This document shows, one piece after another, positions 4,240 to 57,690 of a DNA stretch of 64,000 nt; position 1 is the stretch's first letter, and every line of letters starts with the position of its first letter. The notes beneath the pieces are model-generated. The model did no database searches, had not been told where the DNA came from, and saw only the letters and a program-made list of their open reading frames with translations. The translations under genes and the position numbers were made by a program. Origin of the DNA: Panopea generosa. Its lineage: Eukaryota > Mollusca > Bivalvia > Adapedonta > Hiatellidae. Location: assembly GCA_029582155.1 (NCBI GenBank), contig CM055905.1, forward strand, positions 65,987,356 through 66,051,355, read 5' to 3'.

Positions 4240-5475
4240 ATCATTGCATCAATAATAGTTCAGTTATATCGCGACGATGACTTCTTTAGATGGACACCGG
4301 AGTGTCATGCCGCAAGTACATGGTATGAATAACACCACTCAGTCACATTATACCAACACCGGGCTGACTAGACCTAGAACTGTCCTCTAAATGCTGCCAC
4401 ACTGGAGTGTCATGCCGCACGTACATGGTATGAATAACATCACTCAGTCACATTATACAGACACCGGGCTGACTAGACCTAGAACTATCCTCTAAATGCT
4501 GCCGCACTGGAGTGTCATGCCGCACGTACATGGTATGAATAACACCACTCAGTCACATTATACCGACACCGGGCTGACTAGACCTAGAACTATCCTCTAA
4601 ATGCTGCCACACTGGAGTGTCATGCCGCACGTACATGGTATGAATAACACCACTCAGTCACATTATACCGACACCGGGCTGACTAGACCTAGAACTATCC
4701 TCTAAATGCTGCCACACTGGAGTGTCATGCCGCAAGTACATGGTATGAATAACACCACTCAGTCACATTATACCGACACCGGGCTGACTAGACCTAGAAC
4801 TGTCCTCTAAATGCTGCCACACTGGAGTGTCATGCCGCACATACATGGTATGAATAACATCACTCAGTCACATTATACCGACACCGGTCTGACTAGACCT
4901 AGAACTGTCCTCTAAATGCTGCCACACTGGAGTGTCATGCCCCATGTACCTGGTATGAATAACATCACTCAGTCACATTATACCGACACCGGGCTGAATA
5001 GACCTAGAACTATCCTCTAAATGCTGCCACACTGGAGTGTCATGCCGCACGTACATGGTATGAATAACACCACTCAGTCACATTATACCAACACCGGGCT
5101 GACTAGACCTAGAACTATCCTCTAAATGCTGCCACACTGGAGTGTCATGCCGCACGTACATGGTATGAATAACACCACTCAGTCACATTATACCGACACC
5201 GGGCTGACTAGACCTAGAACTGTCCTCTAAATGATGCCACACTGGAGTGTCATGCCACAAGTACATGGTATGAATAACACCACTCAGTCACATTATACAG
5301 ACACCGGGCTGACTAGACCTAGAACTATCCTCTAAATGCTGAGTACCAAGTGAGAAAGCTTTAAGTACCATTTTTCAAGTCTTTGGTATGGTATGACTGG
5401 AGCGGGGATCGGACACACAACATTCTGCATGTGAGGCGGACGCTCTTCCTCTATACCACCACTGTGGTAAAATTT
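4240..5475 (-). mobile_element. SINE-A copy with tandemly amplified body
   Basis: Read on the minus strand, a tRNA-like head at about 5475-5395 (a degraded box B lies near 5410) leads into the SINE-A body found intact at 33975-34290. The body is then repeated ten times (see the next entry), and the SINE tail (an AACTATTATTGAT-like end) appears once at about 4240-4290. The head and tail enclosing the array show that it grew inside a single SINE insertion. Confidence 0.75.
4299..5349. repeat. 105-bp satellite derived from SINE-A body, ten units
   Basis: The word GGAGTGTCATGCC recurs at 4299, 4404, 4509, 4614, 4719, 4824, 4929, 5034, 5139 and 5244, an exact 105-bp period. Units differ by only a few substitutions. 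Each unit is the antisense of the SINE-A body from 'agcatttagaggatagttc' to 'cactccagtgtgg'. Confidence 0.95.
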
Positions 5476-5837
5476 TAAAAATAACAAACAGGATAATTAT
5501 CACAAAAAGGTTATTAATTGAGAAAAATTGAAAATAAATTCATATGGGATCCAAATGAGGCGCTGATCAATAGGATCTTATCAAAATGTGAAAAGACAAA
5601 AAAAAGTGTGACTTGCAGGCAATAAGAATCAGAAAGTTATCTCAAATGGATTTACATCATACTATTAACAGTTATATTCCCGCAAAGTGGCTAGCTGAAA
5701 ACAGTCAAACCTATATCTAGACAGTTCCGGACATCCAACCACTTTTTACCTGTGAATATATTAAAAAAATTATACGTTTTTTAAAGAACAGAAAATCTTC
5801 TTCTTTTGACATGATATTTAATGAACACCTCAAATAC
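5476..5837. other. AT-rich intergenic sequence
   Basis: Nothing recognisable was found. No long open frame and no repeat shared with the rest of the window. Confidence 0.4.
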
Positions 5838-5925
5838 GGTCCTCCATGACAAGTACTCTAAGGTGCCATCTCGAGATCACTAACCTTGCACCGCTAAGGT
5901 CCTATGTTTGAGTCCTGGTCAGTTT
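5838..5925 (+). mobile_element. SINE-B head fragment
   Basis: The sequence CTCTAAGGTGCCATCTCGAGATCACTAACC followed by a box-B-like GTTTGAGTCCTGG matches the tRNA-Leu-like head of SINE-B (compare 53943-53850 on the minus strand). The body is missing. Confidence 0.6.
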
Positions 5926-6089
5926 TACATTTTATGCCTGTTTGAGCCCGTTGTAATTTGGGAGTCTGCTATGAACTATTCTAGTCTGTACAATGCTTTT
6001 CATGTTAATAGGCTTTGGGTAAGGGATAACTCGCCTTGTTATGTCACTTTTGTGGCATTCAGTTCTCAGAGCCTGTGTGGTTCCAGCTA

Positions 6090-6310
6090 AGAATAGAATC
6101 ACTGCGGATTTTTGTCATGTTCACTATTGTGGTTAAATCATCAACCCCTGTGTGGTTAGAGAATAGAAATTAAACTAATTCAATTTTCTATTTATAAAAT
6201 ATACTCTTGTAACACACACTCACAGCAGAACATGTTTTATAATTATATATAGTATATAAAATACACTCTTGTAACACACACTCACAGCAGAACATGTTTT
6301 ATAATAATAT
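6090..6310. repeat. Dispersed repeat fragment plus a 62-bp direct duplication
   Basis: 6095-6165 resembles 34785-34910 (both read 'agaatagaatcactg' and later 'attgtggt' and 'caacccct'). From about 6193, a block beginning AAAATATACTCTTGTAACAC occurs twice with a spacing of about 62 bp. Confidence 0.6.
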
Positions 6311-6453
6311 AGTATAATACCAAATTTAAAACCAGGTTGACTCATCCATTTTATGGTGGAAAAAATGCCTTACCACAAACTGGGAGCTAGTCTTTAATGA
6401 AAATATACACATTGATTTCAAGTCTGGTTTGAAATTAAACATTTAAAGCATCA

Positions 6454-6591
6454 GGGCCCGGTTTCTCGAAAATACTTAAGTTTGCTATTTTACTTTAACT
6501 CAAATAGTGTGCTCAATTTAAGTATAAAATTGAGCACACTACCGAGTTTAAGTAAAATAAGAGACTTAAGTATTTTTGTGAAACCGGGGCC
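6454..6591. mobile_element. Fold-back element (long hairpin)
   Basis: The arms beginning GGCCCGGTTTCTCGAAAATA and ending TTTTTGTGAAACCGGGGCC are inverted repeats over almost the full length (about 60 bp each, e.g. AGTGTGCTCAATTT against AAATTGAGCACACT), with only a few bases of loop near 6522. This is a palindromic MITE-type insertion without coding capacity. Confidence 0.85.
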
Positions 6592-6734
6592 AGTTGTGTG
6601 TTTTATGGCATTTTTCACATACATTATTTTTATACATGTACATGTACTTTATAAAATGGTTTATTTTTTATTTCTCGGACCCAAATAAATGCCTCCCTTG
6701 GTTAAGTGAATTACACCCTGGGAGTTAATATTTG

Positions 6735-6900
6735 GGTTATACGTTAAGTGATGTGTTTGACTGCCAATCCAAGGGTTGTAAGTTCAAACTCCTGCCTGGC
6801 TGTAACCTATGTGAAGATTACCGAAGTCATGAACTTTGTTCTACAGTCTTGAGGTTCTTACCAGTTTAATACTATTTGCCAGCCTAGGGAACGGTTCCCA
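6735..6900 (+). mobile_element. Probable tRNA-derived SINE fragment
   Basis: A stretch reading GTTTGACTGCCAATCCAAGGG then TTCAAACTCCTG looks like an anticodon arm and box B of a tRNA-like head, followed by a body without match to SINE-A, B or C in this window. Assignment is tentative. Confidence 0.35.
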
Positions 6901-7086
6901 AGTATGATGAAAAGGTGTACAAACTGCCATTGAGTAACTGATATACTATTGAAAAAAGCATAAAACTCATTCATACAAACATAAACAGAAAAATTGTTTA
7001 TGGTAACAAAGACATCTTTGTCAGAATTTACAATGTATTTACCTAAATTCTAATGAAGGTAAAGCAAAATGCCAACTTATCATGGG

Positions 7087-7415
7087 CTAGAGGTGTCCAA
7101 AGGCGTCTATATTAGAGGTGTCCGAAGGCGTCTATATTAGAGGTGTCAAAAGGCACTGAACACTTCCTGCACTGTTTTCCACTCTGTCAGTTAATATAAA
7201 CATAATTTAACCAATAATTCAAAAACCTTCTATATTAGAGGTGTCCAAAGGCGTCTATATTAGGTGTCCGAAGGCGTCTATATTAGAGGTGTCCAAAGGC
7301 GTCTATATTAGGTGTCCAAAGGCGTCTATATTAGAGGTGTCCAAAGGCTTCTATATTAGGTGGCCTATGGCGTCTATATTAGGTGTCCAAAGGCGTCTAT
7401 ATGAAGTAAAGGGTT
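7087..7415 (+). repeat. 22-bp tandem repeat grown from a TTAA-MITE end (family M3)
   Basis: The unit GGTGTCCAAAGGCGTCTATATTA(GA) is repeated about ten times in two blocks (7090-7160 and 7235-7400) around a stretch containing CACTTCCTGCACTG. The array ends in TATGAAGTAAAGGGTTAA, the terminal inverted repeat of the complete M3 element at 51186-51415. The repeated unit is the subterminal segment of that element. Confidence 0.85.
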
Positions 7416-7649
7416 AAGCAATGTCTTTATAACTATTATATCAACTACTATAAGAAGCACCATGTGTATCAATACATTTGTTTGATACTATCAAGACTGA
7501 TAGAGATATTTGCCATTTTTGGCAGGTTCACTTGTTTTATTTTGATTCCAGAGTGCAATCTTCTGTTACCATGAGCACTTCTGTGTTATCATTTAAAGAT
7601 TACTGACTTGCTGCAACATGTGAAGTTATGGTTCAAGTCCAGCTATAAA

Positions 7650-7777
7650 CAGTCAGACCTGTGTTAGTGGTGACCTCTATTAAGCAACCACTTGTCTTAA
7701 AGAGCCACATTTTCTATTTACCATGTTTATAACCTTAGTTAAAATCAACCTGTATTAAGCAGCCACCTGCCTTAAGA
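7650..7777 (-). mobile_element. MITE family M4, partial copy
   Basis: CAGTCAGACCTGTGTTAGTGG at the left matches the inverted form of the M4 right end (CACAGGTTTGACTG at 58942-58955), and blocks such as TTAAGCAGCCACCTG match the other arm. It appears decayed at the right end. Confidence 0.6.
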
Positions 7778-8380
7778 GATAATTTTCGCTCTTTCCCTGC
7801 TTTCTCCAGGAAGGTCTACTCAGACTTATGTTACTTTTATGCACAATTTTGTATATACAGGAAACCTTCTGACACCATTTTATGGTCATATTCATTATTG
7901 CACAGAGAGTACAGTGTTGCTTTCTCACTACAAAGCACTGTTCACCCTTTATCAACTTTATTTTCACATACATTTTTCCCCCTTGCAATTAAGCTTTGCC
8001 CGGGGCTGTTAATATTGTCAAAATTAGGATTCTGGGTAGTGAGAATGCCTTTTGGGTAGTGTTAATAATGAGAATTATGCAAGGCAGGTGATTTTAACAG
8101 TGATACTAGACACAATTTAGTTTAAATATATGTATTGAGTACCACGTGTAAGAATGTGGTTAAAATACCAACCCCTGACAGGGCTGTAAGTCCAGGACAA
8201 ATGGAAAATTGTGCCAGACCAGTCACCCTACAAAAGTTTAGCCCGGGCTTTTATGAGTGCCATTTTCAGAAATCACATATCGGATATTAGTATCTTTAGT
8301 CACTAGTCTGGATCAATTATCATGCAATTATCTCCAGGCAGTATTCAATGGAACATGCCAGTATAAATAGCTGTATTAAT
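7778..8380. other. Intergenic sequence without recognised feature
   Basis: AT-rich, no convincing coding signal. The minus-strand open frame near 7755-7988 has no recognisable motif and overlaps a repeat. Confidence 0.35.
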
Positions 8381-8640
8381 AGCAACATAGGTTGGTTAGC
8401 CATTAGCTCAGTCATTAGAGCATGAGAGTTCTGGTACCGGTGTGAGTTTTCCCTATTCTGAATTAAGTATGACATTGATTCTTTAATTAAAAGGCCAGAG
8501 AAGCAAGTGTACACATTTTTATGAAGTTCAACAAATATATTTAATGCAAAGAATTCCCAATGTTAATGAAAACGCGGCTAAAATTCCCAATTCCAAGGGT
8601 ATGGGTCATCTTCCCAAAATGGTGGAAAAAAAAACCTGGC
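8380..8640 (+). repeat. Dispersed repeat shared with 50500-50700, after a tRNA-like fragment
   Basis: 8385-8430 holds a tRNA-like 'TTAGCTCAGTCATTAGAGCA' (box A). From about 8445, blocks including TTCTGAATTAAGTATGACATT, GCAAGTGTACAC and GGGTATGGGTCAT recur in the same order at 50500-50700. The repeat has no coding capacity. Confidence 0.65.
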
Positions 8641-8644
8641 TTGA

Positions 8645-8790
8645 TTTTGAAGTATGAACTGCTCTCAAGTCCGCTTCCTGGGCAGAACAAGTGATGAGTG
8701 TTGGTCAACAGATCAAACCGGGGATAGAATATGCAATCTCTAGAATGAGCAACCAACTGTTATCCACTGGACTACCACCCTGTCCATAAT
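8645..8790 (-). mobile_element. tRNA-derived SINE fragment
   Basis: On the minus strand, GGACAGGGTGGTAGTCCAGT (box A region) and CCCCGGTTTGATCTG (box B region) lie about 55 bp apart, as in a tRNA-like head. The body that follows does not match the main SINE families here. Confidence 0.5.
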
Positions 8791-9200
8791 AGTTGGCAAT
8801 TTGAATAAAAGTCAACTTATTACAGCAGCAACATCTACCAGCAATAGATTGTATTTCTTCAACATGTCAACAAATAACTAACATGTACAAGGATCACATA
8901 ATTTTATTGGTTCATCGGGCCCATGATTTACTATATATGTAATAAATGACTGAAATTAATTGGATTCTAATTTGCAGTCTGCAGTTTGTTTACTGACAAA
9001 TGAACATGAATTTGCTTTAACTGAATCTATTTCCGTATTTCATGTAATACATGTATGTTGAAGGAAAATATGACAGAGAGAAATAATAAAGAATTTAATA
9101 ATATAACAATGTGAAATGACATTGGTAAACAGTGATAACTATTTATTGCATTATGAGTGTAATTTGACTAGTCTCACTATGCAGTTTTGACCCTTTTTAG
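8791..9200. other. AT-rich intergenic sequence
   Basis: No feature recognised. Confidence 0.35.
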
Positions 9201-9204
9201 CTTG

Positions 9205-14863: not shown

Positions 14864-15501
14864 GTTGACTGGAGTTTATCAAGACAGACTGATGCTGGAT
14901 ATTCTACCCCAGTTACTGCCTTCCCATTCTTACTTCAAGTCAAACACTCTCACTGTGTCTTGATCTATTAATGTAGGTACTATAATTGTTGACTGGAGTT
15001 TATCAAGACAGACTGATGCTGGATATTCTACCCCAGTTACTGCCTTCCCATTCTTACTTCAAGTCAAATACTCTCACTGTGTCTTGGTTACTCTGTATAT
15101 TCCTAGTTACTATAATTGCTGACTGGAGTTTATCAAGACAGACTGATGCTGGATATTCTACCCCAGTTACTGCCTTCCCATTCTTACTTCAAGTCAAATA
15201 CTCTCACTGTGTCTTGGTTACTCTGTATATTCAAAGTTACTATAATTGTTGACTGGAGTTTATCAAGACAGACTGATGCTGGATATTCTACCCCAGTTAC
15301 TGCCTTCCCATTCTTACTTCAAGTCAAACACTCTCACTGTGTCTTGATCTATTAATGTAGGTACTATAATTGTTGACTGGAGTTTATCAAGACAGACTGA
15401 TGCTGGATATTCTACCCCAGTTACTGCCTTCCCATTCTTACTTCAAGTCAAATACTCTCCCCGTGTCATGGCCCCTGTGTTTGAATGTAGTTACTATCAT
15501 T
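14864..15501. repeat. Tandem array of the TRIM-like gene's 3' coding end, 124/130-bp units
   Basis: GTTGACTGGAGTTTATCAAG recurs at 14864, 14988, 15118 (one mismatch), 15248, 15372 and 15502, with spacings 124, 130, 130, 124 and 130. The unit at 15502 lies in the coding exon, where the minus strand encodes the last propeller blade up to VFDLK and the stop. Every downstream unit keeps the equivalent of that VFDLK-stop end. Units are very similar, so the amplification is recent. It is a duplication of coding sequence rather than of a mobile element. Confidence 0.9.
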
Positions 15502-16824
15502 GTTGACTGGAGTTTATCAAGACAGACTGATGCTGGAAATACTAACCCAGTTACTACCTCACCAATCTTCTGTTTCCCCCACTCATCCACCTGTATGACA
15601 TTACCAGACTCCCACCCAGTCACAAACACACTCCCATTCTCATGTACACATACACCACAGGCTCCAGTAAGCTGACTATCAGAGAATGTAGACAGGTGTT
15701 GACCTGTACTGTCCAGTGTAATCAAACCTTTGTGCATATCTGCCACATAGATCTTGTTGCCATCATTACTGACAGCAATATGCCTACTGGAATCAAACAT
15801 GTCTGTACCACTGGGATGGTTGTCTATGGTACTGATATACCTACCTGTTGTGGTGTAGATGTAAACTTTCTTGTATCCATCTGTAACATACAGGTGGTCA
15901 TGGTGGTATGCTATACCACATACACCATGATTCATGTCTATAGACCGGGTGATTGACATTTTGTTGCCTACTGATATAAAGTAAATGGTTTTGTTGCCTG
16001 CAGATACTGCAGCTTCTTGTGGACCAGTACAACATACTGCTATTGGGCCGTTGGGTAGATCACAGTGATCAGTCACTCTGTAGGAGGTGTCTAGTCGTTT
16101 TAATTTGCTGTTGTAACAGTCAGTCAGTAATATTGTTCCATCAGGCATCTGACAGGATCCTTCTATGGCACATGCTTTCTTGTCATTCTTCATTCTCACA
16201 TTTAAATCTCCTCTTTTCTGTGCTGTCACTGCTGTGTAGGGTCGAGGTGTCTGCTGTTTCTGAAACTTGACCTCTGGCACAGTTGACCTCATTTCAACTT
16301 TACCAATGCTTTTTATACTGGCCAGAAAGTTCTCTAATTTAGGTTCAGCTGTCAACCTGAGACTATCATTTCTAGGCATTTTGGAAATACTTTGTAATAT
16401 TTGATCGTTATTTAGTAACTTGTGCTCGCAGTGTTTCATGTTAACAAATGTTTGCGGCTCATTGACTGGCATTGTTGTCTCGAGTTGTTGCTTCAGTTGT
16501 AGTAGCTTAGTCAGTAAGTTGTCACAGACATCTATGTCTTCTTGAATATGTGCATCATTATCTCTATAAAGCTTCTCCAAATTGTCTGTGACTTCCTTCT
16601 CCAGGCTGTCAAACACCTTGTTAACTCGCTGTCTTAAGTCTTTGATGCTTTTAAGTGTATCTGTCTTGGCTTTCTGAAGGTTTACTTTCTTTTGTTGTCT
16701 AGTTTGTTTAATTTTTTCTGTGATTGAACGAGATTGTTCAATATTTCTTTTTGTCGTCATGAATGCTTGACTTTTAACTATTCCCTTTGATACATCTAGA
16801 ATATACTGCATGTCCTTACATAGC
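15438..16824 (-). CDS. RING-less TRIM-like protein, exon 2 (coiled coil and beta-propeller)
   Basis: This exon encodes residues about 117-578. The acceptor (TTTTTTTTTCAATTTTCCAG) lies at 16825-16846 on the minus strand. The reading frame opens LCKDMQYILDV and supplies the last zinc ligand (Cys) of the second B-box. It then gives a Lys/Gln/Leu-rich coiled coil (IKQTRQQKKVNLQKAKTD onward, about residues 140-240), a linker, and a beta-propeller (about 310-578) with NHL-style blades such as GTILLTDCYNSKLKRL, HLYVTDGYKKVYIY, NKIYVADMHKGL and GSVFVTGWESGNVIQV. TRIM proteins with propellers act in ubiquitin-linked or innate immune signalling, and bivalves have expanded families of them; for this protein that role is inference. 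The stop is TAA at 15438-15440. The terminal coding block is tandemly copied just downstream. Confidence 0.9.
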
Positions 16825-18824
16825 CTGGAAAATTGAAAAAAAAAGGATTATAGTGTTAAGAAAGAAATAAAAAAATGGACCAAATTCTAGACAATTTTTT
16901 GTCTAAAATGATTTTAGCTTTTAAGGAAGTAGATCAGGGTTTTTAGAATTTTAATACAGTTAAAACTTGTTAATTTGAACACACATATTTCAAAACTCCT
17001 GTTTAGTTTGAAGATGAAGTTTGGTTCCTATTAAAGTTTTAAGCCTCTAACTCCTGATGTATTAAAATTCATCATTTCGAATTATTCACCAATTTCGAAC
17101 CATTTCCCCAGACCCTGCAACACTACTTACATTGATTTTGCACTAATTATATTTAATTTTCATGACCCCATCAAGATGAAAGGCCCCAGAGGTGGTAAAT
17201 GATTGGTCACTATATTTGTCTGTATTGACAGGTAAGTTAAATGTGTCATTGAGATGTTAAAATGCAAACAGCAGCCATAGAGAAATTTGAATTAACTAAA
17301 TCAAGCAATAGTTAAATTTTAAAGCTGAAACTATCTGTGTGAATAATGACAACCTTATATTTCAGATATAGATTAAGAATTCTAATGTTCCAAAACCAAA
17401 AGGTCTGCTAATCTTTGCTTGTGAAATTTTATACTCGCCCCAACTTCGGCATTGACATCGAGATGAGTGCATCCCACCTGCGATCCAACCTGCGTTAAAG
17501 TTTCAGTGCTAGTTGTTCATAAGGGTGCATAGCTTGCAGTTATATGCATAGAACACATGGCAGCAGTGTACATGCTTATAACTTTGAGACAGTATGTAAC
17601 ATATTGGGCTCCAAATTCAAAGTCAAGGTCATATTTTGTCTTAAAGTTTGCATTAAGCAGTGTTTCCCCCAGGAATTTTTGAAGGCATGTTGGTAAAAAT
17701 GGGAGGGGTGGGTACAGGAGGGGTGTCCCCTCCTGTGTTGATTTTTTTGAATGGTGCATTTTTAAGTATGTGTTTCTATTGAGAATATTGCTGCAATAAA
17801 ATGAATACAAAGAAATTTGAAGTTTTTTTAATGGATGACCAGCAAGGAATTATATAGAGAAGGAAAGGCAACTGATTGAGATTTTGTGAACGCTTGTGTA
17901 TTTACACAAAATCTCGCAATATCTCATTTTCAATTATCTTAACTTTCATTCAAAATTCAAGTTCAAAATTCTTGCATTGCAGAGAGATATTCTCATCAAA
18001 AACAATACCATTCCCAGAAATTTGTGTTTAAAATTGCTGAAACACTTTTGATTACAAAATATCTATACTGATGCTAAAATAACAAGTTAATTATGATATA
18101 TTTTCCTCCAAGCTTCAATATCTGGCCAAATAGTTAATCCTTTGTGTGCTATTTCATCAACATTTAATGTTGAGATGCAAGTTTCCTATCCAATACAAGT
18201 TTCTTATCATATTCTATGCAAGTCCTTGATGACTAGTCATATTTGAATGTTACAATTTATGTTTTAATGTTTGATTCAATATAGAAGCAAATTATATTTT
18301 TCATATAGTATTTGTGTATTTCCAATTGAATACCAATTTTATAAAAGTAACCACAGATAGATTATTCTTAAAAATTATTTTTTTCCCTATCCCCTAAATA
18401 TCCTGCATAAAGGGAACCGCAGTAATCAAATTTTGATTGTCACCACATCCGGGTATTTCCAATGAACGAAAATGCTTTAATCTATGTTAAAAGTTTAAAC
18501 CGTTTTAAGTGCGGATTTTATTTGTTGAAATAAGATGCTGAGAAACCGGGGGTATCAAACTATCCATTAATGTGCATTTCAAATATATATTTCTTCCCAA
18601 TATTAGAATAATATTGCCATAAAAGTATAGTAAAGGAGTGTTTATAAATGGACAACTTGTCATATTTCAAAGTTAATACAAATGAGATGTTTGCATTTTT
18701 AATGTTCCATTCTGAAATTTTCATAAGTTGTCAGTGTATTTCCAAATAAATATAAATTTCATAACATTAATAGTTAAGTCTTAAACATCCCTAATAAACG
18801 GGACCGCTATAACCGATGCAGCGA

Positions 18825-23679: not shown

Positions 23680-23985
23680 CTCACAGTTGAAGGCAAGTGG
23701 TTGCTTAATAGAGATGACCACTAACACAGGTTTTACTGTATTGTGGCCCCATTGTTGACAGTTGAAGACAGGTGGTTGCTTAATAGAGATGACCACTAAC
23801 ACAGGTTTTACTGTATTGTGGCCCTATTGTTGACAGTTGAAGACAGGTGGTTGCTTAATAGAGATGACCACTAACACAGGTTTTACTGTATTTTGGCCCC
23901 ATTGTTGACAGTTGAAGACAGGTGGTTGCTTAATAGAGATGACCACTAACACAGGTTTTACTGTATTGTGGATCCATTGTTTTCT
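23680..23985. repeat. 75-bp tandem repeat derived from MITE family M4, four units
   Basis: The block GGTGGTTGCTTAATAGAGATG recurs at 23696 (first base varied), 23771, 23846 and 23921, an exact 75-bp period. Each unit contains ATGACCACTAACACAGGTTTTACTGTA, which is the right arm and terminus of the M4 elements at 58781-58957 and 60065-60227. The array is thus an amplified MITE end. Confidence 0.9.
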
Positions 23986-30774: not shown

Positions 30775-31285
30775 GTAAGTAGTCAGTCAGACTATCAAAT
30801 CAGGGTCGTGAGTTTGAATCCCCATCAGACCAGTCTCCATGATGATTGATATACAACATTACGCCTCATTGTCATTTGTTGTTGTATGGTGTTTATAGAT
30901 GCTTTCAACAATTTTTCAGTTATAAAGTGACAGTTTGTGCTTGAGCCAGTATTCCAAGCGCTGCCACACTAGAGTATGGTGCCGCAGATACATTGTACAT
31001 TACCCCACCCAGTCACATTATACCAACACCGACTAACTATCTTCTAAATGCTGAGTGCCAAGCGTGGAAACTTTTAGTACCATTAGCCACCCATATGACC
31101 CGGCTGGCAATTGAACCCATGACCTTCCGCATGCAAGGTAGACGCTCTACCTCATAGAACACCATTGCTGATTCAAGAGTAAAATTTATCAGTTACTTAC
31201 AGAGATGGATGTACTCTAGTACTGGATGACAGGAAAGAGTAGTTAACCAATCGTCTGTTATAAAACTGATGCTATTAAATAACCC
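30775..31285 (+). mobile_element. SINE-C interrupted by a SINE-A insertion
   Basis: The SINE-C head and first half (box-B-like GAGTTTGAATCCCC, then CCATGATGATTGATATAC) run to about 30882. The second half (GCTGATTCAAGAGT, TCAGTTACTTACAGAGATGG, TTAACCAATCGTCTGTTA) resumes at about 31168. The sequence between is an inverted SINE-A, so SINE-C was in place first. Confidence 0.75.
30883..31167 (-). mobile_element. SINE-A copy nested in SINE-C
   Basis: On the minus strand, a tRNA-like head with box-B-like GGTTCAATTGCC at about 31110 leads into AAAGTTTCCACGCTTGGCAC, the GTATAATGTGACTGGGT body block and CAAGCACAAACTG, ending in TTGTTGAAAGCATC. It is full-length but diverged. Confidence 0.75.
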
Positions 31286-33620: not shown

Positions 33621-33974
33621 GAAGATTAATATGAGTATTTATACTCAACATGAAAGTCCATGTATATATCAAAGCATATAAATTTGGTCTGTGAAGAACT
33701 TATTACCTAATCTGTAAAACAGTATCAATTCTGAAATATAAACTGTTTAGTCAAGCTCCAATACATTCGATATTCCTTTCCTTGCACTTTCTAGTCCCCC
33801 CCATCATAAATCTTCAACTGTCAGATCTTCATCAACATGCACCTTGGTAATCTGAATACAGTTGAATTCCTGAGCTGTGGAGATAAATAAAATAAAAAAT
33901 AAATATTAAAAGCAACTGGCAAACAGAGCTGTGCTTTGCAATATTTTTCTTATCCTTTATACCCTCACAAAGAC

Positions 33975-34290
33975 TGCGGTGTGGTCTAGTTGTATAGCAT
34001 CTGCCTCGCATGCGGAAGGTCGTGGGTTCGATCCCTGGCCGGGTCATACCAAAGACTTTAAAAATGGTACTAGAAGCTTCCTCGCTTGACGCTCAGCATT
34101 TAGAGTAGAGTTCTAGGTCTGGTCGGCCCGGTGTCAGTATAATGTGACTGGGTAGGGTATCATACCATGTGTCTGCGGCATGATACTCCAGTGTGACAGT
34201 GCTCAGAATACTGTCTCAAGTAGACACAGTCGTGATATGACTGAAAAATTGTTGAAAGTGACGCTAAACACCATACAACTACAACAACAT
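33975..34290 (+). mobile_element. SINE-A, intact reference copy
   Basis: The tRNA-like head GCGGTGTGGTCTAGTTGTA has a box A (TGGTCTAGTTG) and a consensus box B (GGTTCGATCCC) 34 bp downstream, as needed for an internal RNA polymerase III promoter. It is followed by a body of about 200 bp (AAAATGGTACTAGAAGC, GTGTCAGTATAATGTGACTG, CATGATACTCCAGTGTG) and a tail TTGTTGAAAGTGACGCTAAA ending in an ACAACTACAACAAC simple tail. SINEs move using a partner LINE's enzymes. It serves as the reference for the satellites at 4.3 and 55.7 kb. Confidence 0.85.
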
Positions 34291-34344
34291 ACCATCACAA
34301 TAACTAGGTCATTCTTATAAACATGATCAATCAACATAACCACT

Positions 34345-40574: not shown

Positions 40575-40735
40575 CTTAAAGTCTTCCTTGGTAGAACAAG
40601 AACTAAGCAAACCGAAAAAAAAGTGTCTTACTCAAAGTCACCACACATTATTGACCTAGCCGTGATGGAGGATTGAACCAATGACCTTCCAATCCTGGGG
40701 CTGATGCTTTACCACTTAACCATGCTCTCCACACA
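40575..40735 (-). mobile_element. SINE-D copy
   Basis: The minus strand reads a tRNA-like head (GGTTAAGTGGTAAAGCATCA as box A, GGTTCAATCC as box B), a short body with GTGTCTTACTC-type complement, and a tail. A second copy lies at 49470-49605. Confidence 0.6.
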
Positions 40736-40997: not shown

Positions 40998-41180
40998 ACT
41001 CTGACTGCTAAGGTCGTAGGTCCAAGTCACGCTCACTCCAAAAACTTTATTTGAGAAAGTTTGCAAGTTACTTGCGGAAGGACGGTGGTTCTTCTCAGAT
41101 TCATTTTCAGGTCTTCCTCCACAGATAAAACTTGATATGCCTGCCATATATAACCTGAAATGTGTTAAAAAAGGCAATTA
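40998..41180 (+). mobile_element. SINE-B copy, 5' part of head missing
   Basis: Box-B region (AGGTCGTAGGTCCAAGTC), AAAAACTTTATTTGAGAAAG, CGGAAGGACGGTGGTTC and the tail GAAATGTGTTAAAAAAGGC follow the SINE-B order. The tail runs straight into the M3 MITE at 41178. Confidence 0.8.
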
Positions 41181-41383
41181 ACCCTTTAATTCATATAGAC
41201 GCCTTTGGACACCTAATATAGACACCTTTGGACACCTCTAATAGAGAAGGCTTTTGAATTATTTGGTGAATTATGTTAATATTAACTGACAGAGTGGAGC
41301 AATCTGAACTCTTCCTGCACTGTTTTCAAAGGCCTTCTGTGATTGGTGCGGGAAAATGCGTATCTATGGAGTAAAGAGTCAAA
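41178..41383 (-). mobile_element. TTAA-MITE family M3, inverted copy
   Basis: It begins TTAACCCTTTAATTCATA and ends TATGGAGTAAAGAGTCAA, a slightly decayed inverted repeat of the 51186-51415 copy. Inside are GACGCCTTTGGACACC twice and CTTCCTGCACTGTTTTC. The insertion site is in a SINE-B tail. Confidence 0.8.
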
Positions 41384-44670: not shown

Positions 44671-45251
44671 GCGGTTGTCTAGTGGTAGAGCGTCTGCCTC
44701 ACATGAAGATGGTCTTCCAGGATTTGATTCAAGGTCAGCTCATAATAAAGACTTGAGAAACGGTACTAGAGGCTTTTTTTACTTGGCACTCAGCATTTTT
44801 AGGATAGTTCTAGGACTGGTCGGCCTGGTGTCAGTATAATGTGACTAGGTGGGGTATCATACCATGCGTCTGCTGCAATAGTTATACTTCAGTGTGGCAG
44901 TGCTCCGAATACTGTCTCAAGTAGACACTGTAGCTAGGATAGTTCTAGGACTGGTCGGCCTGGTGTCAGTATAATGTGACTAGGTGGGGTATCATACCAT
45001 GTGTCTGCTGCAATAGTTATACTCCAGTGTGGCAGTGCTCCGAATACTGTCTGAAGTAGACACTGTAGCTTGGATAGTTCTAGGTCTGGTTGGACCAGTA
45101 TCAGGATAATGTGGCTTTGTGGGATATGTGTCTGCTGCAATTGTTCAATACTCAGGTGTGGCAACCCTCAGAAAACTGTCTAAAGTACTGTCACCGATAA
45201 AACTGAAAAATTGTTGAAAGAGACACTTAACAACAACAACAACAACAACAT
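44671..45251 (+). mobile_element. SINE-A with three-unit body expansion
   Basis: A tRNA-like head (GCGGTTGTCTAGTGGTAGAG, box B degraded to GATTTGATTC) is followed by the SINE-A body. The block GGATAGTTCTAGG...CACTGTAGCT is present three times (starting near 44801, 44936 and 45071; period 135). The tail is TTGTTGAAAGAGACACTTAA plus (CAA)n. Head and tail are single-copy, so the repeat grew inside the element. Confidence 0.85.
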
Positions 45252-48354: not shown

Positions 48355-48485
48355 AGAAGGGCGAGTTCGATCCCCAGCTGAGTCATACCAAAAACTTGAA
48401 AAATGGGACAAGAAAGCTTCCTCACTTGGCACTCAGCAGCAATGTGACTGAAAAGTTGCTGAAATCGACGCTAAACACTATAAAA
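48355..48485 (+). mobile_element. SINE-A copy with internal deletion
   Basis: Box B (GAGTTCGATCCCC), GAGTCATACCAAAAACTTGAAAA and CTTGGCACTCAGC join directly to the tail AATGTGACTGAAAAGTTGCTGAAATCGACGCTAAAC. About 150 bp of body is lost. Confidence 0.75.
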
Positions 48486-48579
48486 CTAACCAAGGATAAG
48501 TGTCAACTAATTTATTGAAATGTTATTTCTAGTTCCTGCTATTGTACCTTGTGCAAACTTAGTCTAACTTAGTGTACAG

Positions 48580-48760
48580 GGTCGAAGATTCGATCCCCAG
48601 CCGGGTCATACCATAAACTTGAAACATGAAACTATAAGTATCCTTATACCATTGTGTCTGCGGCATGATACTCCAGTGTGGCAACACTTAGAATACTCAC
48701 TGTCTCAAGTAGACACCGTCGCCGCGATATGACTCAAAAATTGTTGATTGCTGAATTGTT
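48580..48760 (+). mobile_element. SINE-A copy, partly deleted
   Basis: Box B (GATTCGATCCCC), GCCGGGTCATACCATAAACTTG, CGGCATGATACTCCAGTGTGG, TGTCTCAAGTAGACACCGTC and ATATGACTCAAAAATTGTTG follow the 33975-34290 reference with a deletion in the middle of the body. Confidence 0.8.
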
Positions 48761-50495: not shown

Positions 50496-50499
50496 ATTT

Positions 50500-51122: not shown

Positions 51123-51185
51123 AATTAACACTGGTTATTAATACTAGTTATTCCGGAAATAAATAAATCACTTTAATATAAAGTA

Positions 51186-51415
51186 TTAACCCTTTACTTC
51201 ATAGATACGCGTTTTACCGCACCAGTCACAGAAGGTCTTTGAAAACAGTGCAGGAAGAGTTCAGATTGCTCGTAACAAGCAATCTGAACACTTCCTGCAC
51301 TGTTTTCCACTCTGTCAGTTAATATAAACATAATTCACCCATTGCTGATATATGGTGAATTATTGCTTTCAATATTAGAGGTGTCCAAAGGCGTCATTAT
51401 GAAGTAAAGGGTTAA
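51186..51415 (+). mobile_element. TTAA-MITE family M3, complete copy
   Basis: TTAACCCTTTACTTCATA and TATGAAGTAAAGGGTTAA are near-perfect 18-bp inverted repeats with TTAA at both ends, as in piggyBac-type elements. An internal hairpin pairs CAGTGCAGGAAGAGTTCAGATTG with CAATCTGAACACTTCCTGCACTG around 51253-51302. The subterminal GAGGTGTCCAAAGGCGTC is the unit expanded at 7.1-7.4 kb. Confidence 0.85.
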
Positions 51416-51444
51416 GGCATGAAAATTGAAGAAAAAGAGAAGTT

Positions 51445-51650: not shown

Positions 51651-51659
51651 AATCAGTCT

Positions 51660-52330: not shown

Positions 52331-52339
52331 TTGTGTGTG

Positions 52340-52465
52340 TTAAATGTTGTGTTCAATCCCTGGTCAAGTGATAAATAAAGACTTGACAAAATGGTATTAG
52401 AATCTTCGTTTCTTGGCGTTCAGCAATTGGAGGATAGTTCTAGGTCTGGTTACTTGCAGAAGAAC
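52340..52465 (+). mobile_element. SINE-A 5' fragment
   Basis: Box-B-like GTTCAATCCCTGG, AAAGACTTGACAAAATGGTATTAGAA, TTGGCGTTCAGC and GGATAGTTCTAGGTCTGGT follow SINE-A; the sequence then switches to SINE-B-like TTACTTGCAGAAGAACGG. Confidence 0.65.
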
Positions 52466-52649
52466 GGTGCAAAAAAAAATAAAACTCCATGGTGCTGAAC
52501 AATAATCAGGCTATGAATGTTTAATGTTAATTACAAAATTTTAATTAGTAACATTTGAAGTTTTAATTGATTTAAGCGTTATTAATTACATGATGCCTAA
52601 TTACTGTGAACAGTGACTGAATCTTTAAATTTTAATTTTTTTTTTATGC

Positions 52650-52812
52650 GAATGGGGTTTAACGCCTTTTTAACACATTCATTGTTATAAACAGCATTAT
52701 CCAGATTTAGTGGTAAAGGAAGACACCAGAATCGGAGTAGAACCCCCGTCCTCCCGCAAGTGACTGGATATGCCATATATAGCCTGAAATGTGTTAAAAC
52801 CCAATTTGAAAG
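52650..52812. mobile_element. SINE-B inverted composite just upstream of the EGF-gene exon
   Basis: 52650-52755 is a minus-strand SINE-B 3' half (GGGGTTTAACGCC, GGAAGACACCAGAATC, GTCCTCCCGCAAGTGAC read on plus). 52763-52812 is a plus-strand 3' end (CTGGATATGCCATATATAGCC, GAAATGTGTTAAAACCC). The putative acceptor of the coding exon follows 27 bp later. Confidence 0.7.
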
Positions 52813-52839
52813 TAAATTTTTTTAATATGAATGTTTCAG

Positions 52840-52980
52840 ACAACGTTGTGAGGTTGCGGATCACTGAATGATTGTATCAACATCTCGAAGAATGAGGACG
52901 ACAATGTCAGAGACCCCCCAGGATGGTTAGACAGAAAATCAACGAGAGATATAGACTTTACCTACTGATTTTCATCTCAG
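52840..52980 (+). CDS. EGF-repeat protein, start exon with signal peptide (CDS 52923-52980)
   Basis: The exon is bounded by a possible acceptor (ATGTTTCAG/A at 52839/52840) and a strong donor (CTCAG/GTGAGTAA at 52980). The ATG at 52923 opens MVRQKINERYRLYLLIFIS and ends in phase 1 with a single G. The next exon at 59697 starts with GA, completing a Gly and giving ERYRLYLLIFISGLNVCLC before QNACEPNPC. This makes a textbook secretory signal: a basic n-region, then a hydrophobic core, with cleavage likely near the first EGF cysteine. An out-of-frame upstream ORF (ATG 52868, TAG 52928-52930) overlaps the start by a few bases and could lower translation. Whether 52840 is a true splice acceptor or lies within a longer first exon is uncertain. 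Confidence 0.7.
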
Positions 52981-53010
52981 GTGAGTAACAGTTGCAAACA
53001 GTTTTGGGTT

Positions 53011-53192
53011 AGGCCATAATAAATTAATTGCTAGATTATCATCCCCGCCTGCCCCCTAATTTTCATGCCACCCGCAACCTTTTTATTTTCATAAAAAAAA
53101 TCAATAAATAAATAAAAATAAAAAATCCTCCTGCCCTCCCCGTTTTTAAGAAAAATTTGGATGATAATCTAGCAATTAATTTATAATGGCCT
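53011..53192 (+). mobile_element. MITE family M5, complete copy
   Basis: GGCCATAATAAATTAATTGC at the left and GCAATTAATTTATAATGGCC at the right, each extended by AGATTATCATCC or its complement, make inverted arms of about 34 bp with one mismatch. It is flanked by TTA/TA. Confidence 0.85.
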
Positions 53193-53471
53193 TAAGTGTA
53201 CTGTTATTTTGAAATTTGGAACTATATGATATAAGGTTTTTAATTGATTTTTAATTATAATTCAAATAATTGTAATTACAATTATAATTGATTTCAATAG
53301 TATTTTGTCATAATGTGTTACCTTCTGTAAATAAAGATAATTATTTTTTTTTAATGGTGGAGTCAGTCAAACAAATTTGTAATTATTAAAAACCTCTTAC
53401 ATGTTATATTTGGTCTCAAATTTCAAAATAAGCGTGTAATTCACACTTCCTGATTTACGAGGCTTTAATAA

Positions 53472-53690
53472 TGATTGATTGAATATTTTAGTGTCATTTT
53501 TATGCCATTGAGGGCTTACAGACGATCAGTTAACTAACCACTTTCCTGGGATTAACTGGTACTTGAGTACAGCCCATTTTCGCAAGCGACTGATAACTTT
53601 CCCACTTGAATCAGTGGTGAGAGACAAATGATAATGAGACAAAATATCTTATATTAATCATCACGGAGACTGGAGTCGGGCGGGGGAACT
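53472..53690 (-). mobile_element. SINE-C copy
   Basis: ATTGATTGAATATTTTAGTGTC, GGGATTAACTGGTACTTGAG, GATAACTTTCCCACTTGAATC and ATCATCACGGAGACTGGAG read on plus as inverted SINE-C. The head is truncated at CGGGCGGGG. Confidence 0.8.
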
Positions 53691-53699
53691 TTAATAATA

Positions 53700-53943
53700 A
53701 AAAAATTAATCGGGTTTAATGCCATTTTCAACACATTTCATATTATATATGGCATATCCAGTTTTACTGGTGGAGGAAGACCTCAGAATGAGTCAGATTG
53801 AATAGAACCACTGTCCTTCCGCGAGTAACTGGAAACTTTCTCACATAAAGTTTTTGGAGCAAGTGGGACTCAAACCTACAACCTTAGTGGTGAGTGGTAA
53901 GTGATCTTGAGACGGCGCCTTAGACCACTCGGCCACTGAGGAC
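53700..53943 (-). mobile_element. SINE-B, full-length reference copy
   Basis: On the minus strand the head reads CAGTGGCCGAGTGGTCTAAG then GCGCCGTCTCAAGATCACTT, with a long variable arm and box B GGTTTGAGTCCC. The CCGAGNGGTCTAAGGCG start and long variable arm resemble tRNA-Leu. The body (GAAAGTTTCCAGTTACTCGC, GGTCTTCCTCCACCAGTAAA) and tail (TTGAAAATGGCATTAAACCC) are complete. Confidence 0.85.
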
Positions 53944-54350
53944 CCAAGCAATTAATTCATTATTCAATATATTGTTTTGTTTGTTGTTCAGTTTTCAGTT
54001 TATATATACTGTTTATGATGAACCATACCCCAGTCTGTTCCTTCATGGATATTGACATAGCTGTGCCCATGTGTGTGTTGGGGATTATCTTCAATATTTG
54101 CTGACACTGCCTCAGATGGCCAATTATGGAGATTTTTTCCTGCATTTCACTTTAATAACACTAATATTTATACAGTTATATGTAAATCTGGCTAATACAT
54201 GTACATTTAGATTTGTTGTTAATTTCATTTTTTTATTATTAGCTGTTTCTTTCCTGTCCGCAGAAACATGTATTGCAATTTTTTGTTGTTATTTTAAATG
54301 TTTTTATTTTGTTATATAAAGAGCGAAAACTAAACACATGGTAAAGCCAT

Positions 54351-54523
54351 TAGGCCATAATAAATTAATTGCTAGATTATCATCCCCGGCCACCACCTAA
54401 TTTTCATGCCGCCCGACCATTTTTATTGTCATAAAAATAAAATAAAAAAAAAAATTCCTCCTGCTCTCCCCGTTTTTAGGAAAAATTTGGATGATAATCT
54501 AGCAATTAATTTATAATGGCCTT
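54351..54523 (+). mobile_element. MITE family M5, complete copy
   Basis: GGCCATAATAAATTAATTGC ... GCAATTAATTTATAATGGCC with AGATTATCATCC arms; immediately followed by another M5-related element. Confidence 0.85.
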
Positions 54524-54780
54524 ATAGATTAATTGCTAGATTCTCATACATTTTTTTCTTAAAAATGGGGAGGGGTGGTGGTGGTGGGGTGGGGGGGAGA
54601 GAGTTTTATTATTTATATAATCTTTCATGACTTTATTTTTAAAACACAATATTTTTTTATTTATTTTTATACAATGTATATATATTTTTTTTATATTAAA
54701 ATAAAAAGGGTCAGGGCAACATGAAAATAAGGGCTCGGGCAGGGATGAATTTAATCAAGCAATTGATTTATAATGGCCTA
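54524..54780 (-). mobile_element. MITE family M5, diverged inverted copy
   Basis: TAGATTAATTGCTAGATT opens the element, and AATAAAAAGGGTCAGGGC then AATTGATTTATAATGGCC close it, like the 46351-46503 orientation. A G-rich GGGGAGGGGTGGTGG insert and AT-rich filler lengthen the centre. It adjoins the previous copy. Confidence 0.7.
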
Positions 54781-54904
54781 ACCTACCTGCTACCCACTTC
54801 TAAAATCCTGGAAGTTTCCAACAAAATCCCAGTGTAAATGCACCACACCCGTATTACATTCATGTTTGATAATTCCTCGGTAATCTCTGTAACTAAATGG
54901 GGGT

Positions 54905-55125
54905 CCGTGAGGTCAAGTGAACTAACGTGTCATCTCAAGATCACGTACCTCCCATTGCTCGAGTCCCGCTTGCTCCAAAAACTTTATGAGAAAGTTTGCT
55001 ATTTACTCGCGGAAGGACGGTGGTTCTTCTCAGGTCCATTCTGAAGTCTTCTTCCACCGATAAAACTGGATATGCCATATATAACAGGAAATATGTTGAA
55101 AATGGCGTTAAATCCCATTCAAAAA
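54905..55125 (+). mobile_element. SINE-B copy
   Basis: CGTGAGGTCAAGTGAACTAAC with CTCAAGATCACGTACCTCCC, then CGAGTCCCGCTTGCTCC, TTACTCGCGGAAGGACGGTGG, CGATAAAACTGGATATGCC and TGTTGAAAATGGCGTTAAA. Confidence 0.8.
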
Positions 55126-55149
55126 CAAAACAAACAAAAAATGGTCGAA

Positions 55150-55345
55150 GGTGGACTGTTAAGGTTGTCTGTTCATGCCCAGCTTGGTCTAAACACTTCA
55201 TGAAAAAGTGTGTCATTTGCATTTTTTGTACTTGTGGGAGGACATAGGTTCTACTCATATTTGAGTATTCATAGATGCATCTTTCAACCAATAGATATAT
55301 AACCATGTATAACCTGTACCGTGTTGGAAACAGCATCCAAACAAA
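55150..55345 (+). mobile_element. SINE-B-related diverged copy
   Basis: TTAAGGTTGTCTGTTCATGCCC (box B remnant), ACTTCATGAAAAAGTG, GGGAGGACATAGGTTCTACTC and the tail ACCGTGTTGGAAACAGCATC keep the SINE-B order at low identity. Confidence 0.5.
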
Positions 55346-55529
55346 ATTTGACAAAAAATACAAAACAAAAAGAACTCTCTCATTCTTTTTTTCAGACATT
55401 TGTCCGTGTATTGTCAAGAGAATACACGTGATATGTTTCCCACAATATAAGATGCGTGTTGTGGTTAAACCCTCCGTTGGGCTACATGAGTAATTAGGGA
55501 TCAATGAGGCCGTCGTTGTATGGCATGTT

Positions 55530-55735
55530 GTGATGTATGGTATTTAGAATCGTGGCTGTCTGTCAATGACACATGTTCTGTGGTATTTAAAATTGTGGCT
55601 GTCAGTCAATGACACGTTGTGTTCCGTGGTATTTAGAATTGTGGCTGTCGGTCGATGACACTGTTCCGTGGTATTTAGAATTGTGACTATTGGTCAATGA
55701 CACGTTGTGTTCCGTGGTATTAAGCAGGTTGTGTC
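55530..55735. repeat. ~45-bp tandem repeat, five units
   Basis: TTCCGTGGTATTTAGAATTG followed by TGGCTGTCGGTCAATGACAC recurs with spacings of 42-47 bp (landmarks near 55541, 55584, 55630, 55672, 55719). It runs straight into the 55-bp satellite. Confidence 0.85.
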
Positions 55736-55737
55736 AT

Positions 55738-57690
55738 GAAGCTGTCAATATGAGACAGTACTACAAGTGCTGTCACACTGAAGTGTCATGAACCTGCCAG
55801 TATGAGACAGTACTACAAGTGCTGTCACACTGAAGTGTCATGAACCTGCCAGTATGAGACAGTACTACAAGTGCTGTCACACTGAAGTGTCATGAACCTG
55901 TCAATATGAGACAGTACTACAAGTGCTGTCACACTGAAGTGTCATAAACTTTTCAATATGAGACAGTACTACAAGTGCTGTCACACAGAAGTGTCATGAA
56001 CCTGTCAGTATGAGACAGTACTACAAGTGCTGTCACACTGAAGTGTCATGCAGCAGCTGTCAGCTTGAGATTGTAGTATTAGTGTTGTCACACTAAAGTG
56101 TCATACCACAGCTGTCAACTTGTGACAGTACTATAAGTGTTGTCACACTGCAGTTTCATACCACAGCTGTCAACTTGAGACAGTACTATAAGCGCTGTCA
56201 CACTGAAGTGTCATACCACAGCTGTCAATTTGAGATGTTACTATAAGCGCTGTCACACTGAAGTGTCATGCCACAGCTCAGCTGCTGTCAACTTGAGCCA
56301 GTACTATAAGCACTGTCACACTCAAGTGTCATGCCACAGTTGTCAACCTGAGCCAGTACTATAAGTGCTGTCACACTGAAGTGTCATGCCACAGTTGTCA
56401 ACCTGAGCCAGTACTATAAGTGCTGTCACACTGAAGTGTCATGCCACAGTTGTCAACCTGAGCCAGTATTATAAGTGCTGTCACACTGAAGTGTCAAGTC
56501 ACAGCTGTCAACTTGAGCCATTACTACAAGCATTGTCACACTGAAGTGTCATGCCACAGTTGTCAACCTGAGCCATTACTACAAGCATTGTCACACTGAA
56601 GTGTCATGCCACAGTTGTCAACCTGAGCCATTACTACAAGCATTGTCACACTGAAGTGTCATGCCACAGATGTCAACCTGAGCCATTTCTACAAGCATTG
56701 TCACACTGAAGTGTCATGCCACAGTTGTCAACCTGAGCCATTACTACAAGCATTGTCACACTGAAGTGTCATGCCACAGTTGTCAACCTGAGCCAGTACT
56801 ATAAGTGCTGTCACACTGAAGTGTTATGCCACAGTTGTCAACCTGAGCCAGTATTATAAGTGCTGTCACACTGAAGTGTCAAGTCACAGCTGTCAACTTG
56901 AGCCATTACTACAAGCATTGTCACACTGAAGTGTCATGCCACAGTTGTCAACCTGAGCCATTACTACAAGCATTGTCACACTGAAGTGTCATGCCACAGT
57001 TGTCAACCTGAGCCATTACTACAAGCATTGTCACACTGAAGTGTCATGCCACAGCTGTCAACCTGAGCCATTACTACAAGCATTGTCACACTGAAGTGTC
57101 ATGCCACAGTTGTCAACCTGAGCCATTACTACAAGCATTGTCACACTGAAGTGTCATGCCACAGTTGTCAACCTGAGCCATTACTACAAGCATTGTCACA
57201 CTGAAGTGTCATGCCACAGTTGTCAACCTGAGCCATTACTACAAGCATTGTCACACTGAAGTGTCATGCCACAGTTGTCAACCTGAGCCATTACTACAAG
57301 CATTGTCACACTGAAGTGTCATGCCACAGTTGTCAACCTGAGCCAGTACTATAAGTGCTGTCACACTGAAGTGTCATGCCACAGTTGTCAACCTGAGCCA
57401 GTACTATAAGCGCTGTCACACTGAAGTGTCATGCCACAGCTTAGCTGCTGTAAATTTGAGCCAGTACTATAAGCACTGTCACACTGAAGTGTCATGCCAC
57501 AGCTGTCAACTTGAGCCATTACTACAAGCGCTGTCACACTGAAGTGTCATGCCACAGCTGTCAACTTGAGCTGGTACTATAAGCTCTGTCACACTGAAAT
57601 GTCATGTCACAGCTGTCAACTTGAGCCATTAATACAAGTGATCACACTGAAGTGTCATGCCACAGCTGTCAACTTGAGACAATACTATAC
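55738..57690. repeat. 52/55-bp satellite derived from SINE-A, about 35 units
   Basis: The unit reads GTCACACTGAAGTGTCATGC, then CACAGTTGTCAACCTGAGCC, then ATTACTACAAGCATT (55 bp). The first six units are a 52-bp variant with GAACCTGCCAGTATGAGAC. The unit matches the antisense of SINE-A positions around CATGATACTCCAGTG to TGTCTCAAG (34175-34225). The marker variant CAAGTCACAGCTG appears at 56495 and 56880, 385 bp (seven units) apart, with the neighbouring variants in the same order, which shows a higher-order duplication. It lies in intron 1 of the EGF gene. Confidence 0.95.

Follow-up and report, generated by a model that had tools for sequence, protein, structure and literature searches.

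The window analyzed here is a 64,000-nucleotide stretch of the genome of the bivalve Panopea generosa (contig CM055905.1, denoted C12; C12:65987356-66051355 of the searched 1.47-Gb, 39-contig assembly), and it contains several copies of a short interspersed element (SINE), denoted SINE-A, the body of which has been turned into tandem arrays (Table 1). SINE-A appears to be a tRNA-type retroposon, with a CAACAA-type tail and a possible resemblance to Nin-domain SINEs; its head carries putative B-box-like (GGTTCGATCCC, 10 of 11 positions) and A-box-like (11 of 12) motifs when compared with consensus motifs, and ARAGORN and Rfam, consulted for the tRNA origin of the head, each gave 0 matches in the window. 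The sequence-only reading that drew attention to this region had placed an intact copy at 33975-34290; the copy is indeed intact and bordered by a 12-bp target duplication, and only its boundaries had to be moved. Perfect 12-13-bp target duplications were found at all four further genomic copies tested, which were among the best matches (each reached by 0 of 200 shuffles). The copy number of SINE-A is probably in the thousands: a first look at the genome yielded 6,636 dispersed candidates, and the 40 that were scored, on many contigs, are all near full-length SINEs. A hidden Markov model built from seven loci of the window recovers the known copies and the 55-bp array described below, together with a few weak matches led by one at 40652-40722 (E 6e-5). 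SINE patterns had no matches in viral and bacterial sequence collections, and six SINE words sought in the text of papers gave 0 matches.

The 105-, 135- and 55-bp expansions in the window represent three separate births of tandem repeats. All three are detected by a blastn search with SINE-A, and the score of every unit against SINE-A was reached in 0 of 500 shuffles (105-bp unit, 135 vs a shuffle maximum of 28; 135-bp unit, 177 vs 27; 55-bp unit, 53 vs 34; 52-bp left variant, 40 vs 34), in agreement with the original proposal that a single SINE family seeded different arrays. The 105-, 135- and 55-bp units span positions 124-227, ~133-264 and ~202-257, respectively, of the 319-bp SINE consensus used for breakpoints; as had been noticed, these segments overlap, with roughly positions 199-222 common to all three, and their ends differ.

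Table 1. SINE-A copies, their internal direct repeats and SINE-A-derived arrays (positions in the window unless a contig is named)
Feature	Position	Strand	Details
SINE-A, intact reference copy	33971-34288	+	12-bp target duplication with 1 mismatch
Target-site duplication of the reference copy	33959-33970; 34289-34300		ATACCCTCACAA; ATACCATCACAA
Left arm of internal direct repeats	34090-34104	+	CGCTCAG 34090-34096; CAGCATTTAGA 34094-34104
Right arm	34197-34207	+	CAGTGCTCAGA in this copy, consensus CAGCGCTCAGA; 103 bp from CAGCATTTAGA
TGCTCAG inside right arm	34200-34206		consensus CGCTCAG; 110 bp from left CGCTCAG
Unexpanded SINE-A relative	30876-31153	-	
SINE-A copy, most of body deleted	48356-48488	+	left end at CTCAGCA
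SINE-A copy with internal deletion	48574-48748	+	
Truncated SINE-A copy	52347-52454	+	
SINE-A copy with expanded body	4240-5459	-	head 5342-5459, array 4294-5341, shortened diverged tail 4240-4293
Ten 105-bp units	4294-5341	-	junction CCAGTGTGG/CAGCATTTAGAG, 103-bp register
SINE-A copy with body expansion	44671-45251	+	head 44674-44799, tail from ~45196
135-bp unit 1	44800-44934	+	
135-bp unit 2	44935-45069	+	differs from unit 1 at 3/135 sites
Unit 3 of trimer	45070-45195	+	older and shorter
35 units of 52/55/63 bp	55740-57690	-	from SINE positions ~199-252; no SINE head or tail
Paralogue of the 105-bp array	near C15:19574428-19576631		~21 units, same SINE

The 105-bp units had been described as ten exact copies between a SINE head and tail. 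The period is exactly 105 bp, and the longer terminal unit runs into the SINE end on both sides of the array, for which Table 1 gives revised limits; the units themselves are 92.9-99.0% identical (mean 96.3%), with 11 variable columns out of 98. Seven of ten pairs of informative sites fail the four-gamete test, all four combinations being present, a pattern that exchange or conversion between units would produce; recurrent mutation may also explain it.

The three-unit expansion does lie inside a SINE, as previously stated, and consists of two near-identical 135-bp units and a diverged third that differs from unit 1 at 20 of 122 aligned sites and from unit 2 at 21 of 123, in addition to gaps. 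The joins between units 1 and 2 and between units 2 and 3 have almost identical sequences (GTAGCTAGGATAG and GTAGCTTGGATAG), which fits a trimer of two ages, in which a recent duplication was added to an old one. A uniform in-place duplication was examined by a relative-rate comparison (16 vs 5 changes, the excess on unit 3, P 0.027); with single outgroups, the P values were 0.007, 0.21, 0.013 and 1.0, a result too weak for claiming conversion of unit 3 from another copy. The breakpoints of the trimer differ from those of the 105- and 55-bp arrays and, therefore, the trimer is not their precursor, contrary to the suggestion that it represents an intermediate of such arrays.

In the 55-bp array, the estimate of about 35 units from one body segment was borne out by 35 anchors; their spacings, however, are 52, 53, 54, 55, 56 and 63 bp, and the array starts at 55740. 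It aligns mainly with SINE positions 199-252 (few alignments reach 267), at 75-85% identity, and shows no longer terminal unit running into a SINE end. A 427-bp stretch is repeated at a 385-bp shift with 99.3% identity, that is, a block of seven units has been copied. The window arrays, 1-2 kb in length, differ from classical satellite DNA, with its long, abundant arrays in heterochromatin, and among the 100 listed of the 109 genome matches to the word of the 55-bp array, the 55-bp period is found at one locus only, that in the window. A 46/88-bp tandem array at 55538-55721 adjoins the 55-bp array and is unlike SINE-A (342 of 500 shuffles score as high). In total, the units of 15 other arrays in the window were compared with SINE-A as candidate derivatives and none was convincing (the lowest counts of shuffles reaching the score were 28, 54 and 58 of 500). 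One 16-bp array, at 2716-2877, has a 14-mer, CTATCCTCTAAATG, in common with the 105-bp unit; its match to SINE-A was reached by 70 of 500 shuffles.

Outside the window, 19 SINE-derived array loci were read, wholly or partly, and 13 of these continue into a SINE head or tail; for several of the other six, one end lies outside the stretch that was read. The series of copy numbers anticipated by the sequence-only reading was found, with expanded SINEs that retain the head, the tail or both carrying 3 (C12:3.68 Mb), 8 (C1:93.81 Mb), 10 (window), ~21 (C15 paralogue), ~27 (C14), ~35 (C17), ~39 (C8), ~41 (C12:2.92 Mb) and ~47 (C7:71.0 Mb) units, where the approximate counts are the span divided by the period, and C8, C7:71.0 and C14 were read at two ends only. 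The smallest member of the series consists of a SINE head followed by three 103-bp units and shares the junction of the 105-bp array. Arrays with SINE flanks, likewise anticipated, exist for the 105-bp type, and the 55-bp array has none. At C1:93.81 Mb, a SINE containing eight 110-bp units has kept both ends and is surrounded by a perfect 9-bp target duplication (reached by 1 of 200 shuffles); the array at C8:33.15 Mb also has both SINE ends. Alignments of the window and C15 loci run into the flanks at 95.0-97.6% identity, that is, these regions are paralogous, with 10 and ~21 units, respectively, which indicates that array length has changed since they separated.

The longest perfect direct repeats in the SINE-A consensus (40-180 bp apart) are TCATACCA (116 bp apart), CGCTCAG (110 bp) and five 6-mers including TGACTG (93 bp), and the array breakpoints recur on such repeats. 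The CGCTCAG pair, with breakpoints 110 bp apart, was used at no fewer than seven loci (at least 7); a CAGC breakpoint within an 11-bp imperfect repeat, 103 bp apart, at four loci and one paralogue; and TGACTG, 93 bp apart, at one locus (C14). The junction of the 105-bp array (a slash marks the breakpoint in Table 1 and below) has 184 genome matches with at most 1 mismatch compared to 0 for the reversed control; among the ~100 that were listed, many are isolated and resemble ordinary body sequence, and those in arrays define a 103-bp register with periods of 105 bp (window and C15), 100 bp (C17:46.47 Mb), 104 bp (C12:2.92 Mb) and 103 bp (C12:3.68 Mb). The 110-bp junction, CAGYRCTCA/GCATTTAGAGGA, has 173 matches (control, 0), and the 100 listed fall in seven clusters, all read at least in part, with periods of 110 bp (C1:93.81, C4:83.92 and C8:33.15), 116 bp (C12:46.69), 112 bp (C1:7.47), 113 bp (C1:9.46) and 85 bp (C7:67.53 Mb), the last combining the same junction with an internal deletion. 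The C14 array, found via the 55-bp word, has SINE sequence at both ends and joins exactly at TGACTG (GATATGACTG/GGCAGGG); this pair had been listed from the consensus before the junction was read, when the period of 93 was already known.

In a search that left the right breakpoint free, GCATTTAGAGGA occurring twice at 97-127 bp gave 309 genome matches compared to 0 for the control. The 100 listed matches group by eye into 16 loci on C1-C11, ten of which were read; all ten align to SINE-A (C9:65.66 Mb only at positions 236-276, and C2, C9:35.89 and C11 over short stretches), with units of 26 to 125 bp from different windows of the element. Among the ten arrays not selected by their junctions (the 105-, 135- and 55-bp arrays of the window, C14, C1:93.8, C4, C8, C3, C7:41.8 and C7:71.0), six show perfect breakpoint homology of at least 4 bp, compared to 1.6% of random pairs and 3 of 200 simulated arrays. 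The notion of a preferred body segment holds insofar as identical breakpoints were used repeatedly at unlinked loci.

Several observations weigh against the mechanism proposed below. The junction homology of the 135- and 55-bp units is just 2 and 1 bp (P 0.15 and 0.44), the C3:27.8 Mb junction has none, that at C7:41.8 Mb, where the split is ambiguous, has 2 bp, and the 105-bp junction of the window taken alone reaches only P 0.017. At C8, the majority junction, CACTCAG/CATTTAG, which was the one used, accounts for 7 of 10 unit-to-unit junctions, and a single C8 unit gave no homology; at C7:67.53, the automatic caller misplaced the junction owing to the internal deletion, and it was read by eye. 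Six of the ten arrays came through the pattern that requires the left-arm word, such that the selection is blind to the right breakpoint only; the homology count left out four short-unit arrays that were read (C2, two on C9, and C11), and the searches that gave the 103- and 110-bp junction matches were aimed at those junctions themselves. Repeats of at least 7 bp at a comparable range occur in 68 of 100 shuffles and, accordingly, the SINE is not special in carrying them. Reciprocal, body-deleted products of the 103-bp register gave only 3 matches, all on C5 (control, 0). As DNA, the body and three of the units fold no more strongly than shuffles do (z -0.79, 1.24, 0.61 and 0.13), which rules out a hairpin at the breakpoints. 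Finally, a search for a target duplication around the 105-bp element found none, the 135-bp element has only a weak 10-bp match, and those at C8, C7:71.0 and C12:2.92 are only 6-8 bp long and come without a shuffle control.

The sequences of the arrays bear on whether those in the same register arose independently. At nine 103- or 110-register loci where the tail was read, the right arm survives outside the array in four (C1, C8, C17 and C12:2.92) and is lost in the other five; in all four, the surviving variant fits the register used, namely, CTCAGAATAC at C1 and C8 (110), CAGTGTTTAGAATAC at C17 and CAGCATTATGAATAC at C12:2.92 (103). The matched junctions at C17 are GCAGCATTTAGAG in 27 of 34 cases and GCAGTGTTTAGAG in 2 of 34 (right-arm letters, left-arm continuation), the latter suggesting a crossover within the repeat. 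For all nine independent arrays, the unit consensus has its nearest match in a single-copy SINE rather than in another array, with a small margin for the window array (0.88 vs 0.87), mostly low bootstrap support in the tree and some consensuses built from few units (C12:3.68, 1; C4, 2; C8, 3; C7:41.8, 3). Arrays of the same register are not more alike, the mean identity being 0.81 and 0.83 within registers and 0.82 between them (calculated by hand from the table of identities), and the flanks of the window, C17 and both C12 arrays match mutually over at most 34 bases, with E of at least 0.03 (one side for C12:2.92).

We propose, with a probability of about two in three, that separate, already inserted SINE-A copies were duplicated between chance direct repeats and then grew by unequal exchange. 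The SINE-A body carries such repeats, the CGCTCAG pair, the imperfect CAGCATTTAGA-like pair and the TGACTG pair, 110, 103 and 93 bp apart, respectively, and, in an individual copy, the two arms would misalign, so that the segment between them is duplicated; replication slippage, microhomology-mediated repair and unequal exchange are the candidate processes. The first duplication would supply long homology for further unequal exchange, and the arrays would grow and partly homogenize within the old SINE; at many loci, one end or both ends of the array are still capped by it. The product would be a small satellite with a unit length equal to the spacing of the arms plus the indels of that particular copy, as misalignment between the arms implies. 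Support for this mechanism is strongest in the case of the 103-, 110- and 93-bp registers, and the 135- and 55-bp units fall outside that support.

The 55-bp array requires a different route or has lost its ends. A body fragment could have been excised, or circularized, and reinserted beside the 46/88-bp array; alternatively, an old expanded SINE could have lost both ends. Either course is possible but doubtful: the array combines the lack of SINE ends and junction homology with an adjacent satellite and a period confined to one locus among the listed matches, but there is no direct evidence of a circle, and the units closest to SINE-A (u27, 85%; u25, 83%; the others, 72-80%) are not of the bulk type, as decay in place could give.

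For the arrays in general, the first duplication could have occurred at insertion, through template switching of a reverse transcriptase encoded by a long interspersed element (LINE) between short repeats in the SINE RNA, with only the later growth in DNA. Such switching predicts the same short junction homology and, like that observed at C1:93.81 Mb, a target duplication that encloses the entire element. Nevertheless, length change continued at least after insertion, given the difference between the window and C15, and, in the trimer of the window, units 1 and 2 resemble each other far more closely than they do unit 3, so that this route appears unlikely, and we infer that duplication followed insertion. 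Descent of the arrays from a body-dimer SINE subfamily that arose once and was retrotransposed is still less probable, to the point of being hard to maintain. It would account for the identical junctions at unlinked loci, and the isolated matches to the 103-bp junction, even if they resemble normal body sequence, may leave room for dispersed dimers of that register; however, the seven clusters of listed 110-junction matches each comprise at least three, with none isolated (by reading), and the proximity of the arrays to single-copy SINEs, together with the lack of any greater similarity within registers, speaks against a common dimeric ancestor. Assembly of the SINE body from the monomer of a pre-existing satellite is barely credible because, although homology alone lacks direction, the scored candidates are near full-length SINEs, those tested have target duplications, and the arrays use many windows of one body and mostly continue into SINE ends.

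The Tetris foldback transposon of Drosophila virilis is reportedly a mobile element that supplies building blocks of satellites; being a foldback DNA transposon, it is unlike a SINE. SINE-derived satellites are already known in reptiles and have been proposed in a limpet. The closest parallel is with sSat1-3 of squamates (Vassetzky et al. 2023, PMC10702118), defined by more than 4 tandem SINE-derived units; the 105-bp (10 units) and 55-bp (35 units) arrays exceed this number and the 135-bp copy (3 units) does not. As in squamates, the arrays come from different windows of one SINE family as independent variants, SINE sequence is kept at array ends, copies range from a few units to long arrays, and long arrays are more homogeneous (PMC10702118). 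The SINE family and the organism are different, and most squamate arrays keep one SINE end, both being a minor variant, whereas several arrays here keep both (PMC10702118). The text of that study mentions no direct repeat, microhomology or breakpoint, whereas here the breakpoints recur on direct repeats of the consensus (PMC10702118). In the limpet Patella caerulea, a satellite, PcH-sat, has been proposed to derive from a Nin-SINE and, similarly, is a molluscan satellite with a monomer containing part of a SINE; it is one abundant pericentromeric 179-bp satellite that makes up ~10% of the limpet genome, in contrast to the many small arrays with different units found here (PMC11121367). In the Xenopus miniature inverted-repeat transposable element (MITE) miDNA4, an internal satellite is flanked by short direct repeats, and microhomology between these is proposed to change the length of the internal array (Scalvenzi and Pollet, as summarized in PMC12628747), as we propose here; miDNA4, however, is a DNA transposon with a captured repeat, whereas SINE-A amplifies its own body (PMC12628747). 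The setting of breakpoints by direct repeats of the consensus appears to be new: in the open-licence literature, covered mostly at the level of titles and listings, no report of SINE-derived satellites whose breakpoints lie on direct repeats was found.

The first duplication of a satellite is rarely seen arising, and a SINE body turned tandem shows how satellite DNA can start. SINE-A offers many apparently independent births within one family, and the parent sequence is known, so that a fixed template is available against which to measure the choice of breakpoints, growth and homogenization, and unit length becomes predictable and testable. We lean slightly toward the broader view that chance repeats are predictable seeds, such that the breakpoints used, and the lengths of the units, in many of its satellites can be read in advance from a SINE consensus, and the same register is reborn at unlinked copies.

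Three of the loci that were read show signs of additional rearrangements. At C17:46470530-46470609, an inverted SINE tail lies beside the head of the 100-bp array, joined via CTCTAAATGCTG, the reverse complement of the left-arm word. The unit of a 61-bp array at C9:65663200-65664400 joins GCATTTAGAGGA to GGAATACTGTCTC and resembles a body-deleted piece of the SINE, such that a single copy may undergo both deletion and amplification. Among the 110-register arrays seen, the largest, at C12:46688979-46701763, extends over ~13 kb with a period of 116 bp, and the gaps between listed matches at 46695228-46696395 repeat exactly at 46698245-46699412, 3,017 bp on, suggesting large block duplications.

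Tandem arrays are abundant in this genome generally, covering 13,681 of the 64,000 bases of the window (21%) and 15,658 of 60,000 sampled bases (26%), and hence SINE-A is one substrate among others; 60 kb at six chosen positions contained one SINE fragment. The possibility that SINE-A is more prone to expansion than two other dispersed families of the window was considered (2 of 7 vs 0 of 14 loci, by reading), and we make no such claim. Both of these families share sequence with arrays. One is a MITE-like element (51186-51416, 41178-41382 and 7088-7418), the best copy of which has terminal inverted repeats beginning with TTAACCCTTTA; its 23/25-bp unit near one end forms another copy-number series, with one unit at 51186-51416, two at 41193-41245, and about seven at 7229-7402 plus about three at 7088-7154. 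The second element (7646-7798, 58765-58959 and 60046-60229) itself holds two diverged ~75-bp units and shares ~52 bp (88%) with a four-unit 75-bp array at 23683-23981. The window also contains a 469-codon open reading frame (15438-16847, reverse strand) with matches to the SGL and NHL beta-propeller families of Pfam.

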